A DNA stretch of 64,000 bases from Thermus scotoductus DSM 8553 (GTDB lineage Bacteria; Deinococcota; Deinococci; Deinococcales; Thermaceae). Position 1 is the stretch's first letter. Each line of letters starts with the position of its first letter. Positions 25,567 through 29,871 of the stretch are shown here, piece by piece. The stretch covers positions 1 to 64,000 of the forward strand of contig NZ_KB905731.1 of assembly GCF_000381045.1 (NCBI RefSeq). Reading direction: 5' to 3'. Position numbers and translations under genes: made by a program. The notes under the pieces are model-generated. The model saw only the letters and a list, made by a program, of their open reading frames with translations, was not told the DNA's origin and did not search any database.

Positions 25567-25948
25567 GCAACGCCTTCAGCCAGTCCCTGGCCTCCTGTGG
25601 GCCGAGGAGAAGGGGCTTGCGGCTTGGGTGGAACCAGGCGAGGAGTTCTTGGGCTTCCCTTGGGCTTGGCCCTTGCCCCTGGGCCTCGAGGAGGATCTTG
25701 TGGTCCCCATCCGCCAGCCACATTATGCCCACCACTTCCCCCTCCACCTGGGTTCCTGGGGGAAGGGGAGGACCCAGGAAAACCGCATCCACCTCTTCCC
25801 CGTCGGCGGGGTTGATGAGGCCAGGGATGAGACCATAGTTCACCGGCGCCGGTTGGTCCACGGCCACCAGGGCGAGGTTCCCATCCTTCCAGGCATAGCG
25901 GAAGGAGCTTCCTTTGCTCCACTCCACCACCATGCGGAGCCGATTCAT
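25556..25948 (-). CDS. divergent inorganic pyrophosphatase-family protein
   Basis: The 130-residue protein resembles soluble family I pyrophosphatase but is shorter. The core shows VNYGLIPGLI (compare YGFIPGT), then ADGEEVDAVFLG in place of the DGDPLDVLVL metal motif (one Asp replaced by Glu), and MWLADGDHKILLEA in place of MxDExGxDDKIL. The N-terminal Lys/Glu substrate segment is weak. It could be a catalytically altered or low-activity PPase; no substrate can be assigned. It overlaps mgtE by four bases, so a magnesium-related role is possible (pyrophosphatases are magnesium enzymes), but this is inference. Confidence 0.65.
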   Translation of the reverse strand: MNRLRMVVEWSKGSSFRYAWKDGNLALVAVDQPAPVNYGLIPGLINPADGEEVDAVFLGPPLPPGTQVEGEVVGIMWLADGDHKILLEAQGQGPSPREAQELLAWFHPSRKPLLLGPQEARDWLKALLRG

Positions 25949-27294
25949 CCCAACTCCAGCAGAAGTCGGGCCACCGAGAGGTAGATGAGGAGGCCCGAGA
26001 TATCGGAAAGGGTGGCCACCAGGGGGTTGGAAACCAGGGCAGGATCCACGCCAAGCCGCCTCAACACCACGGGGAGCATGGCCCCCACCAGGTTGGCGAA
26101 GAGCACCAGGAGGAAAAGGGCCAAGGCTACCACCGGGGCCAAGGCGGCATGCCCGTCCAGGAAAACCTTGCCCACGAGGAGGGCAGCCAAGGTGAGGCCG
26201 AGCAGGCTTCCCACCAGGGCTTCCTTGGTCAGGACCCGGCGCCAGTCCCTGAGGTCCAGGTCCCGGGTGGCCAGGGCCCGGATGATGAGGGTGGCGGACT
26301 GGTTGCCGGTATTGCCCCCCGTGCCCAGGAGTACGGGGACATAGAAGGCCAAGGCGGTGGCGGCCTCCAGGAGGTTTTCAAACCCCTGGAGGATGGAACT
26401 GGTCACCATGCCCGTGAGGATGAGGATCACCAGCCAGCGCACCCGGGCCATCCAGAGGGCGATGGGGGAGGCTTGGCTGTACACCAAGTCCGGCACGTCC
26501 ACCGCCGCCATGCGGTGGATGTCCTCGGTGGCCTCCTCTTCTAAAACGTCCAGCACGTCGTCCACCGTGACGATGCCCACCAGCACCCCGTCCTCGTCCA
26601 CCACGGGCAAGACGGTGAAGTCGTAGTCGGCCATGAGGCGGGCTACCTCTTCCTGGTCGGTGTCCGTGCGGGCGAAGACCACCTTGGGGTTCATGATCTC
26701 CGCCACCTTGGTCTTCGGGTCAGCCACGATGAGGTCTCTTAAGGACAAGACGCCCTTGAGGCGGCCCGCCTCGTCCACCACGTAAATGTAGTAGATGGTT
26801 TCCGCATCAGGGGCGGCCCGGCGCAGGAAGCGGATGACCTCCTCCACGGTCATGCCCTCCCGCACCGCCACGTACTCGGGGGTCATGAGGCCGCCTGCCT
26901 CATCCTCCTCGTACTGGGTCAGCTCTTCCACCTCAGCCCGGGTTTCGGGATCCAGGGCCTCCTTGAGGCGGTGGACTAGATCGGGGTCCTCCTCCTCCAC
27001 CGCCTGGAGGGCGTCGGCCAAGTCGTCCAGGGAGAGCTCCTCTAAGAGCTCCCGCACCCGCCAGGGGGGGAGGGTTTTCAGATATTCCGCCTGCTCCTCC
27101 GCGGGGAGGTTGGCGAAAACCTCCGCAGCCCGTTCCTTGGGAAGGAGGGTGAGGACCACGTAGCGGTGTTCCCCCTCGAGGTCATCCCACACGGCCAAGA
27201 GGTCCTGGGGATGGGTTTCCTCCAGGAGCTTGCGAAGCTTGAGGGTGTCGCCTTCTTGCAGGGCTTGGCGCAGAGGGGAAAGGGTCATCTCCAC
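25945..27294 (-). CDS. mgtE: magnesium transporter/channel MgtE
   Basis: MgtE is a magnesium-selective channel gated by cytosolic magnesium. The 449-residue protein closely follows the crystallised T. thermophilus MgtE: N domain (1 to about 130), two CBS domains (about 135-260; AGGLMTPEYVAV and EIMNPKVVFAR), a plug helix, and five transmembrane helices with the pore motif GTGGNTGNQSATL and the magnesium-site Asp in RRLGVDPALVSNP. The GTG start at 27294 has GGAGG six bases upstream; ATG two codons later is less well spaced. The leader may be a regulatory switch (see 27291-27340). Confidence 0.96.
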   Translation of the reverse strand: MEMTLSPLRQALQEGDTLKLRKLLEETHPQDLLAVWDDLEGEHRYVVLTLLPKERAAEVFANLPAEEQAEYLKTLPPWRVRELLEELSLDDLADALQAVEEEDPDLVHRLKEALDPETRAEVEELTQYEEDEAGGLMTPEYVAVREGMTVEEVIRFLRRAAPDAETIYYIYVVDEAGRLKGVLSLRDLIVADPKTKVAEIMNPKVVFARTDTDQEEVARLMADYDFTVLPVVDEDGVLVGIVTVDDVLDVLEEEATEDIHRMAAVDVPDLVYSQASPIALWMARVRWLVILILTGMVTSSILQGFENLLEAATALAFYVPVLLGTGGNTGNQSATLIIRALATRDLDLRDWRRVLTKEALVGSLLGLTLAALLVGKVFLDGHAALAPVVALALFLLVLFANLVGAMLPVVLRRLGVDPALVSNPLVATLSDISGLLIYLSVARLLLELG

Positions 27295-27340
27295 AGGCGG
27301 CCTCCTTTCTCCTGAAGGCCGCCTGCTGGGCGGCCTTCAG
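27291..27340 (-). promoter_or_regulatory. mgtE leader with two alternative helices, one covering the Shine-Dalgarno
   Basis: On the minus strand a perfect 12-bp hairpin (27340-27329 with 27323-27312, loop CAGCA) lies just before the ribosome site. The 3' arm, GGCGGCCTTC, can instead pair for ten pairs (one G-U) with GGAGGCCGCC at 27305-27296, which contains the Shine-Dalgarno. The two pairings exclude each other because both use the same strand. This is the layout of a translational on/off switch. No match to the known M-box is seen. Confidence 0.55.
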
Positions 27341-27381
27341 GGCCTAGGACTCGAGGGCAAAGCCCCTAGCATACCTTCCTT

Positions 27382-27410
27382 AGCCTAGGGTTCCCGGTCG
27401 GGGCCGTCAA
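27382..27410 (-). promoter_or_regulatory. mgtE promoter
   Basis: Minus strand TTGACG (27410-27405), 17-base spacer, TAGGCT (27387-27382). A TATGCT at 27373-27368 is an alternative -10. Either gives a leader of about 70-80 bases that contains the alternative helices. Confidence 0.55.
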
Positions 27411-27443
27411 CCGTGCCCACTAGAAATGTGGGAAAAATTGAGG

Positions 27444-27473
27444 TTGACACGCTCAAGGGGTCTGGCCTATTCT
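27444..27473 (+). promoter_or_regulatory. ffh promoter
   Basis: Perfect TTGACA (27444-27449), 18-base spacer, TATTCT (27468-27473). A short GC hairpin (CCGGCC/GGCCGG) and GGGAGG precede the ffh ATG. Confidence 0.7.
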
Positions 27474-27501
27474 AAAGCCCGGCCTGGCGGCCGGGAGGCT
27501 C

Positions 27502-28806
27502 ATGTTTGCGAAGCTGGCAGGAAGACTGCAGGAGGCCATAGACCGCTTAAGGGGACGGGGCCGTATCACCGAGGAGGACCTGAAGGCCACCCTCAGGGAG
27601 ATCCGTCGGGCCCTGATGGACGCCGATGTGAACCTGGAGGTGGCGAGGGCCTTTGTGGAAAGCGTCCGGGAGAAGGCCCTGGGCCAGAAGGTCCTGGAAA
27701 GCCTGACCCCGGCCGAGGTGGTGCTGGCCACGGTCTACGAGGCCCTCAAGGAGGCCTTGGGCGGGGAACCCCGCTTCCCCACCCTGAAGAACCAGAACCT
27801 GTGGTTCCTGGTGGGCCTCCAGGGCTCCGGCAAAACCACCACCGCGGCCAAGCTGGCCCTTTTCTACAAGGGGAAGGGAAGGAGGCCCCTCCTGGTGGCC
27901 GCCGACACCCAGCGCCCGGCAGCCCGGGAGCAGCTTCGCATCCTGGGGGAAAAGATCGGGGTCCCGGTCCTGGAGGTGCAGGATGGGGAGAGCCCCGAGT
28001 CCATCCGCCGTAGGGTGGAGGAGAGGGCCAGGCAGGAGGTTCGCGACCTCATCCTGGTGGACACCGCCGGGCGCCTGCAGATCGACGAGCCCTTGATGGC
28101 GGAGCTGGCCCGACTCAAGAAGGCCATGAACCCCGACGAGGTGCTTCTGGTCCTGGATGCCATGACCGGCCAGGAGGCCCTTTCGGTGGCCAAGGCCTTC
28201 GACGAACGGGTGGGGGTCACGGGGCTCATCCTCACCAAGCTGGATGGGGATGCCCGGGGTGGGGCGGCCCTCTCCGCCCGGCACGTGACGGGGAAGCCCA
28301 TCTACTTCGCCGGGGTTTCCGAGCGCCCCGAGGGCCTGGAACCCTTCTACCCTGACCGGCTGGCGAGCCGGATCCTGGGCATGGGGGATGTGGCCACCCT
28401 GGCGGAGAAGGTTCGGGCTGCGGGCCTCGAGGCCGAAACCCCCAAGTCCGCCAAGGAGCTCACCCTGGAGGACTTCCTCAAGCAGATGCAGAACTTGAAG
28501 CGCCTGGGCTCCTTCTCGGAGATCCTCGCCATGCTTCCCGGGGTGGGTAAGGCCTTGCCCGCCGGGGTCCAGGTGGACGATAAGGCCATCAAGCGCCTGG
28601 AGGCCATCGTTCTTTCCATGACCCCCGAGGAGCGCAAGGACCCCCGCATCCTAAACGCCTCCCGCCGCAAGCGCATCGCCAGGGGAAGCGGCACCAGCGT
28701 GCAGGAGATCAACCGCTTCATCAAGGCCTTTGAGGAGACCAAGGCCCTAATGAAGTCCCTGGAGAAGAACAAGGGCCGGGGACTCATGGGAATGTTCAGG
28801 AGGTAG
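27502..28806 (+). CDS. ffh: signal recognition particle GTPase Ffh
   Basis: Ffh with 4.5S RNA delivers signal-bearing nascent chains to FtsY at the membrane. The 434-residue protein has the N helical bundle, the G domain (GLQGSGKTTTAAKLA near residue 105, DTAGRLQ, TKLDGDARGG), and a methionine-rich M domain ending near GLMGMFRR. It starts a plus-strand cluster ffh-rpsP-khpA-rimM-trmD-rplS, a widely conserved order. Confidence 0.97.
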   Translation: MFAKLAGRLQEAIDRLRGRGRITEEDLKATLREIRRALMDADVNLEVARAFVESVREKALGQKVLESLTPAEVVLATVYEALKEALGGEPRFPTLKNQNLWFLVGLQGSGKTTTAAKLALFYKGKGRRPLLVAADTQRPAAREQLRILGEKIGVPVLEVQDGESPESIRRRVEERARQEVRDLILVDTAGRLQIDEPLMAELARLKKAMNPDEVLLVLDAMTGQEALSVAKAFDERVGVTGLILTKLDGDARGGAALSARHVTGKPIYFAGVSERPEGLEPFYPDRLASRILGMGDVATLAEKVRAAGLEAETPKSAKELTLEDFLKQMQNLKRLGSFSEILAMLPGVGKALPAGVQVDDKAIKRLEAIVLSMTPEERKDPRILNASRRKRIARGSGTSVQEINRFIKAFEETKALMKSLEKNKGRGLMGMFRR

Positions 28807-28812
28807 GAAAGA

Positions 28813-29067
28813 ATGGTAAAGATCCGGCTTTCTCGTTTCGGCTCCAAGCACAACCCTCACTACCGCATCGTGGTCACCGATAGCCGTAGGAAGCGCGACG
28901 GCGCCTACATCGAAAAGATCGGGTACTACGATCCCCGCAAGACCACTCCCGAGTGGCTGAAGGTGGACGTGGAGCGGGCCAAGTATTGGCTTTCCGTAGG
29001 GGCCCAGCCCACGGACACCGCCCGGAGGCTTCTCCGGCAGGCGGGGGTTTTTCGGAAGGAAGGCTAG
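28813..29067 (+). CDS. rpsP: 30S ribosomal protein S16
   Basis: S16 binds 16S rRNA in the 5' domain and helps assembly. The 84-residue protein has the family start [25 protein letters not shown] and IGYYDPRK. It lies 6 bases after ffh, with AGGAGGT overlapping the ffh stop as ribosome site. A GC-rich hairpin follows. Confidence 0.97.
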
Positions 29068-29084
29068 GGGTTAAGGCCCCTGAG

Positions 29085-29117
29085 GGCGCCGGTGGGTGTA
29101 CCCACCCGGCGCCTTTG
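29085..29117 (+). terminator. hairpin between rpsP and khpA
   Basis: GGCGCCGGTGGG (29085-29096) pairs with CCCACCCGGCGCC (29101-29113) with one bulged base and loop TGTA, followed by TTTGCCTT. It probably acts as a partial terminator, separating S16 from the rest of the cluster. Confidence 0.55.
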
Positions 29118-29132
29118 CCTTAACATGAGGCC

Positions 29133-29351
29133 ATGAAGGACTTGGTGGAGTATTTGGCCAAGAGCGTGGTGGACCAGCCGGAGCGGGTTCGGGTGCAGGA
29201 AAGGCGTACCCGGGAAGGTCCCCTTTACGTGGTGGAGGTGGCCCCTGAGGATAAGGGTCGGCTCATCGGCAAGCAGGGCCGGGTCATTGAGTCCATCCGC
29301 ACCCTGGTAAGGGCCTACGCCAAGCGCAAGGTGGGGGTGGAGGTGCGCTAG
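29133..29351 (+). CDS. khpA: KH-domain RNA-binding protein KhpA
   Basis: The 72-residue protein is a single KH domain with the GxxG loop in GRLIGKQGRVIESIRTL. KhpA partners with KhpB in Firmicutes as a small RNA-binding complex; it commonly lies between rpsP and rimM, as here. A TAACAT box (29121-29126) lies 6 bases before the ATG, so it may have its own leaderless promoter after the rpsP hairpin. Confidence 0.88.
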   Translation: MKDLVEYLAKSVVDQPERVRVQERRTREGPLYVVEVAPEDKGRLIGKQGRVIESIRTLVRAYAKRKVGVEVR

Positions 29352-29382
29352 GCCCGCGGGGCTTTGGCATAATGGATTAGGG

Positions 29383-29871
29383 ATGCGCCTGGTGGAAATC
29401 GGTCGGTTCGGTGCCCCCTATGCCCTACGCGGGGGTCTGAAGTTCCGGGGTGAGCCGGTGGTGGCTCACCTGGAGCGGGTCTACGTGGAAGGGCATGGCT
29501 GGCGGGCGGTGGAGGATCTCTACCAGGTGGGGGATGACCTGGTGGTTCACCTGGCGGGGGTTTCCAGCCGGGAGCTGGCCGAGCCATTGGTGGGCCTCCG
29601 GGTGTATGCCGAGGTGGAGGAACTTCCCCCCCTCGAGGAGGGCCGGTACTATTACTTTGCCCTGATTGGCCTACCCGTTTACGTGGGGGGCTTGAAGATG
29701 GGGGAGGTGGTGGACATCCTGGACGCAGGAGCCCAGGATGTCCTGGTGATCAAGGGCGTGGGGGAAAGGCTTCGCGACCAGACGGAACGCCTGGTACCCC
29801 TGCAGGCGCCCTACGTGCGGGTGGAGGAGGAGGGCATCCACGTGGAGCCCATCCCCGGCCTCTTTGACTGA
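29383..29871 (+). CDS. rimM: 16S rRNA processing/ribosome maturation factor RimM
   Basis: RimM assists 30S head assembly by binding S19. The 162-residue protein has the N-terminal RimM domain (MRLVEIGRFGAPYALRGGL) and the PRC-barrel domain (YYYFALIGLPVY through VPLQAPYVRV). CATAAT (29368-29373) lies 9 bases before the ATG. trmD follows immediately, its ATG touching the rimM stop. Confidence 0.94.
   Translation: MRLVEIGRFGAPYALRGGLKFRGEPVVAHLERVYVEGHGWRAVEDLYQVGDDLVVHLAGVSSRELAEPLVGLRVYAEVEELPPLEEGRYYYFALIGLPVYVGGLKMGEVVDILDAGAQDVLVIKGVGERLRDQTERLVPLQAPYVRVEEEGIHVEPIPGLFD

Follow-up and report, generated by a model that had tools for sequence, protein, structure and literature searches.

The Mg2+ transporter genes mgtA and corA of E. 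coli and Salmonella are repressed when their short leader ORFs, mgtL and corL, respectively, are translated efficiently, and low Mg2+ hinders elongation across proline and acidic residues in these two peptides (PMC11552253, PMC11282234). The mgtE leader of Thermus resembles the MgtL and CorL systems in having a short leader ORF (uORF) and mutually exclusive RNA structures ahead of a Mg2+ transporter gene, in the presence of prolines in the encoded peptide, and in the repression of the transporter by efficient leader ORF translation, shown for MgtL and CorL and predicted for Thermus. There are also clear differences, however. The Thermus gene encodes a MgtE-type channel, and the predicted target of control is its Shine-Dalgarno (SD) sequence, vs. 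Rho-dependent termination in the enterobacterial systems. In addition, the Thermus uORF is near-leaderless, the leader is about 80 nt long, and the peptides have no sequence relation beyond composition, with the Thermus peptide usually lacking the early acidic residues of MgtL.

The ermC-type attenuators also combine a leader peptide with exclusive hairpins that control access to the SD of the following gene. A stalled ribosome opens this SD in the ermC type; in Thermus, in contrast, a ribosome near the uORF stop codon is predicted to close it. The translational M-box of Mycobacterium tuberculosis pe20 offers a parallel in RNA architecture, with an anti-SD that pairs with either an upstream anti-anti-SD or the translation start region, but the switch is driven there by a large Mg2+-binding aptamer (PMC12810186), whereas the Thermus leader has no M-box. 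Lastly, the mgtE motif of Thioalkalivibrio (SRC-65-1), which we compared by description only, likewise holds the mgtE SD and start codon within a leader stem, but it is described as a riboswitch candidate restricted to Thioalkalivibrio (PMC11109978). Our search of the open-access literature found no account of a uORF, a leader or mapped start sites for Thermus mgtE, or of how the mgtE gene of Thermus thermophilus is controlled. The MgtE protein of T. thermophilus is a structurally well-studied Mg2+ channel.

In the window (the whole 64-kb stretch of DNA analysed here), mgtE is divergent from ffh (27502-28806, + strand), and the best PDB match of its product is the magnesium transporter MgtE (2yvx), in keeping with matches to solved MgtE structures. 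The coordinates of the mgtE features are collected in Table 1. The divergent ffh and mgtE promoters lie back to back (27405-27473), and their -35 boxes are separated by an A+T-rich segment, CAATTTTTCCCACATTTCTAG, that looks by eye alike in most Thermus leaders. As a separate observation on the window as a whole, the hexamer CTCGAG is present in 70 copies vs. about 22 expected from base composition.

Table 1. Positions of mgtE and of the elements of its leader in the window.
Feature	Position	Strand	Remarks
mgtE	25945..27294	-	ORF, 449 aa; start GTG at 27294
SD of mgtE, AAAGGAGG	27301..27308	-	predicted from sequence; 6 nt before GTG
Helix B, SD-side strand, GGAGGCCGCCTGT	27293..27305	-	runs into start codon; core ten pairs invariant
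Helix B, anti-SD strand	27314..27326	-	
Hairpin A, 3' arm	27311..27323	-	part 27323-27314 common to helix B
Hairpin A, 5' arm (anti-anti-SD)	27329..27341	-	holds uORF stop TGA (27339-27337)
uORF, MLGALPSSPRP*	27337..27372	-	start, stop and frame kept in 26/27 Thermus leaders
-10 box TAGGCT, predicted	27382..27387	-	9-10 nt before uORF ATG in 26 genomes
-35 box TTGACG of predicted mgtE promoter	27405..27410	-	TTGAC[AG], 17-18 nt to TANNNT, in 27/27 Thermus leaders

A first-pass annotation of the mgtE leader had described a perfect 12-bp hairpin, ten pairs that its 3' strand could form instead with the SD region, and the mutual exclusion of the two structures. All three elements are indeed present. 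The hairpin (A), in which CCTGAAGGCCGCC pairs with GGCGGCCTTCAGG around a CAGCA loop, has one further pair and thus forms a perfect stem of 13 bp, while the ten pairs lie within a longer helix (B) of 13 pairs, two of them G-U, between GCAGGCGGCCTTC and GGAGGCCGCCTGT. Helix B extends over the SD as far as the first bases of the mgtE GTG start codon and would therefore hide the SD; since it has a ten-nucleotide strand in common with A, the two helices exclude each other, and they have a similar computed energy. To define the arrangement, we required a stem of at least 11 pairs whose 3' arm also makes at least 10 pairs with a segment 3-15 nt downstream. The mgtE leader was the sole place with such an arrangement on both strands of the 64 kb, and when the 170-nt region was shuffled 5000 times with its dinucleotides preserved, 2 shuffles produced one. 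Taken as a pattern, the shared strand plus the SD strand has a single occurrence in the window's whole genome.

We looked for an intrinsic terminator in the mgtE leader and found none; hairpin A is not one. Together with its position upstream of the predicted ffh promoter, this indicates that hairpin A belongs to the mgtE transcript only. A permissive Rfam search of positions 26000-29500 yielded no relevant family and no match to the M-box (RF00380) up to E = 5, in agreement with the first-pass view that no M-box is present.

The uORF (ATG CTA GGG GCT TTG CCC TCG AGT CCT AGG CCC TGA) was missed in the first pass. Its conserved length is 11-13 codons, and the typical peptide reads M-x-[G/E]-x-L-P-S-S-P-x-x-stop. 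Changes in its length are of 3 nt (G002, G021) or 6 nt (G003) only; the distance from the uORF stop to the mgtE start is 40-43 nt, and changes that are not multiples of three fall outside the uORF. The proline at codon 6 is conserved, while Glu or Asp is found at codons 3-4 in some species only. Of the two serine codons, AGT never varies and TCG almost never does; genes of the window use both sparingly (0.93 and 3.8 per 1000, respectively). It should be noted that an RNAcode-like codon-substitution test on the uORF was not significant, with 326 of 1000 column shuffles scoring as high, and that conservation of the stop codon is confounded with that of stem A. Translation of the uORF is thus suggested by its start, stop, frame and position, and not by its substitution pattern. 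As the predicted promoter ends 9-10 nt before the ATG, mgtE transcription probably starts around position 27375, about 3 nt upstream of the uORF. Leaderless genes are frequent in the Thermus phylum (PMC3160421).

To follow the leader across the genus, we compared 27 Thermus genomes, 25 of which are at least 90% complete, with 24 aligned leaders available for pair counts. The first-pass annotation had named the loss of one of the complementary strands in close relatives as an observation that would refute a switch. The pattern of shared strand and SD strand is kept at mgtE in 24 of the 25 more complete genomes, two of these 24 having a second match elsewhere, and also in G021 (87% complete); in G025, a 65%-complete assembly, it is broken by one missing base in the shared strand. 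Three of the weak leader matches found elsewhere in the genomes were read, and seemed to be coding sequence. Within the hairpin A 3' arm, GGCGGCCTTC is identical across the 24 aligned leaders save for one gap, in G025, and the CCGCC between the SD and the start codon is invariant. One feature of MgtL/CorL-type attenuators, a short ORF conserved ahead of a gene for Mg2+ transport, is found in 26 of the 27 Thermus leaders, and one feature of translational attenuators, conserved exclusive helices with one over the SD, is found as well.

The first pass had also suggested looking for compensatory changes across Thermus. Nearly all changes in A and B do keep pairing (99.7% and 99.3% of cells paired, respectively, in the 24 aligned leaders), but most pairs never vary, so that covariation is thin. 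Stem A shows one double change, C-G to G-C in G018. Stem B shows double changes at two outer pairs: five genomes have G-C in place of A-U, and G004 has A-U in place of C-G, together with a mgtE start codon of TTG instead of GTG. Only 2 of 500 shuffles reached the values of stem B, both for cells paired and for covariation score; the result for stem A was weaker, with 35-40 of 500 shuffles reaching it. A further candidate helix (C), between the 5' part of the uORF and the hairpin A 5' arm, was dropped, with 79.7% of cells paired. Since most pairs are invariant, the main argument is that the strands stay constant while the loops and linkers around them vary. Folding of the alignment consensus alone chose B and not A, and the evidence for A therefore consists of the pair counts and of the modelled states described below.

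The sole genome among the 25 to have lost the pattern, G015, has a uORF start changed from ATG to ATT, and the uORF stop, the hairpin arms and the complement of the SD side are gone, while the promoter and SD are still present. These parts of the leader decay as a unit. Separately, a mgtE paralogue with some 32% identity occurs in G015 (L022, L206), and likewise in G006 and G017, which still have the leader.

We then folded 23 leaders at 37, 60 and 70°C with a modelled ribosome, whose footprint was assumed to run from -12 to +15 relative to each P-site codon; the model includes no kinetics, cotranscriptional folding or Mg2+, and it uses extrapolated energy parameters at 70°C. Helix B had a probability of 0.99-1.00 at all three temperatures, with the SD hidden, when the P site was on any of the last three uORF codons; on the fourth codon from the end, the probability was 0.98-0.99. 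Where the uORF had 11 codons, a ribosome at its first codons gave hairpin A probabilities of 0.61, 0.75 and 0.81 (37, 60 and 70°C, respectively), compared to 0.38, 0.64 and 0.74 with no ribosome, B being favoured on average in the ribosome-free state at 37°C. States were mixed for a mid-uORF ribosome (0.16-0.67 for A, from the ninth to the fifth codon from the end). The mean calculated accessibility of the SD with no ribosome was 0.21 at 37°C and 0.34 at 70°C, and its computed accessibility outside the OFF state was moderate only (0.2-0.55). These results suggest that completion of the uORF should switch mgtE off, while a failure to start or an early drop-off would leave mgtE more accessible.

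We propose that the mgtE leader is a translational attenuator driven by translation of the uORF, with a logic like that of MgtL and CorL, and put the probability of this reading at roughly 60%. Transcription would begin just ahead of the uORF ATG and hairpin A would be the first to fold, leaving the mgtE SD free (ON). A ribosome at the last uORF codons would cover the 5' arm of A and free its 3' arm, which could then form helix B with the mgtE SD and start codon (OFF). If ribosomes fail to initiate, leave the uORF early or pause short of its end, the 5' arm would stay wholly or partly free, allowing A to form. If MgtL and CorL are taken as a guide, the proline-containing peptide would be elongated poorly at low Mg2+, which would increase MgtE levels, and efficiently at high Mg2+, which would decrease them. 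The dependence on ribosome position is a computed property of the folding model, from which we infer the ON/OFF consequence for mgtE. That Mg2+ may be the signal is suggested by the nature of the mgtE gene; slow decoding at the rare serine codons is a possible alternative trigger.

Several observations support such an attenuator: the A/B arrangement is unique in the window and kept at mgtE in all but one of the well-assembled genomes; the uORF keeps its frame, with length changes in multiples of three inside it and a fixed distance from a conserved promoter; an outer B pair changes along with the GTG-to-TTG start codon; in the folding model, a ribosome on the last three uORF codons leaves the leaders almost entirely in B; G015 lost all parts of the switch together, with the promoter and SD remaining; the leader has no terminator and no M-box; and most relatives in the family outside Thermus also carry a uORF before mgtE. 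It is weakened by the non-significant codon-substitution test, the thin covariation and the poor showing of A against shuffles, by the moderate SD accessibility outside the OFF state and the preference for B in the ribosome-free state at 37°C, and by the mixed mid-uORF states and the usual absence of the early acidic residues of MgtL.

We favour the attenuator over a ligand-binding mini-riboswitch or a thermometer. Interconversion of A and B by direct binding of Mg2+ or another ligand, with the uORF incidental, would fit the similar computed energy of the helices, the identity of the gene as a Mg2+ transporter and the control of mgtE genes elsewhere by M-boxes (PMC12810186). Such a riboswitch is unlikely, however: an aptamer would have no room except the uORF itself, this upstream segment keeps its reading frame through length changes of 3 and 6 nt, the helix C needed to structure it is poorly supported, and Rfam gave no match. 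The first-pass annotation had imagined a bare RNA of about 50 bases responding to magnesium or temperature. This interpretation is partly supported, but a bare RNA is disfavoured as the sensor, since the conserved uORF ends inside the first arm of hairpin A, so that the switch would most naturally be driven by the ribosome; the calculated effect of temperature on the ribosome-free SD is small. An RNA thermometer, in which heat would move the balance from B to A and expose the SD, could account for the rise in ribosome-free hairpin A from 0.38 to 0.74 between 37 and 70°C, a calculation that uses extrapolated energy parameters at the upper temperature, but SD accessibility increases only from 0.21 to 0.34 and both helices are very stable and G+C-rich, making this reading highly improbable.

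The closeness of the uORF to mgtE also brings to mind translational coupling, in which uORF translation would aid that of mgtE, for example by reinitiation after the stop 40-43 nt upstream, with the hairpins tuning or insulating the process. Many bacteria, including Deinococcus-Thermus, have been proposed to carry leader genes that promote translation of the gene behind them, but the spacing of such pairs peaks at 10-13 bp in most groups (PMC4833913), vs. about 42 here. Furthermore, mgtE has a strong SD of its own, and the conserved complementarity of the SD spacer predicts repression upon ribosome termination; we consider coupling improbable. Hairpin A could, alternatively, be a mere stabiliser or spacer at the mRNA 5' end, helix B a by-product of the repeated GGCCGCC, and the uORF untranslated. 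The great stability of A, its location near the predicted 5' end and the outcome of the substitution test are consistent with this idea, but the CCGCC spacer of the SD never varies, outer pairs of B show coordinated changes, start codon included, and the frame and position of the uORF are kept, all of which make it quite unlikely.

Outside Thermus, 20 of 23 genomes of the family have a different, SD-led uORF before mgtE, encoding 17-21 aa with the start VED[HSY]S[SD][SG]R. The leaders with this uORF in the non-Thermus genera g2, g4 and g5 (L188-L205, L207, L208, L210 and L211) are referred to here as Meiothermus-type. A degenerate VED-type uORF is seen in G032, and G061 and G028 have none. The consensus fold of the Meiothermus-type leaders pairs the mgtE SD region, and in two of three singly folded leaders a hairpin hides the SD at any ribosome position. 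Rfam searches of 12 related leaders gave nothing relevant and no M-box match up to E = 1. The Meiothermus-type leader is a candidate regulatory leader of its own. A broader reading, which we advance tentatively and at less than even odds, is that the Thermaceae sense Mg2+ via the ribosome, leader peptides governing mgtE in two designs: the LPSSP uORF with helices A and B in Thermus, and the VEDxSxSR uORF with an SD-hiding hairpin in the Meiothermus type.

The Thermus mgtE leader looks like a compact, previously undescribed leader-peptide switch for magnesium uptake. If this is correct, leader-peptide control of Mg2+ uptake would extend well beyond the enterobacteria. It would operate through a remarkably short leader (about 80 nt) in a thermophile amenable to genetics, and G015 supplies a naturally occurring loss for comparison. 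Should the reading for the Thermaceae as a whole also hold, control by Mg2+ leader peptides would exist outside the enterobacterial MgtL and CorL, acting on the translation of a MgtE-type channel gene.
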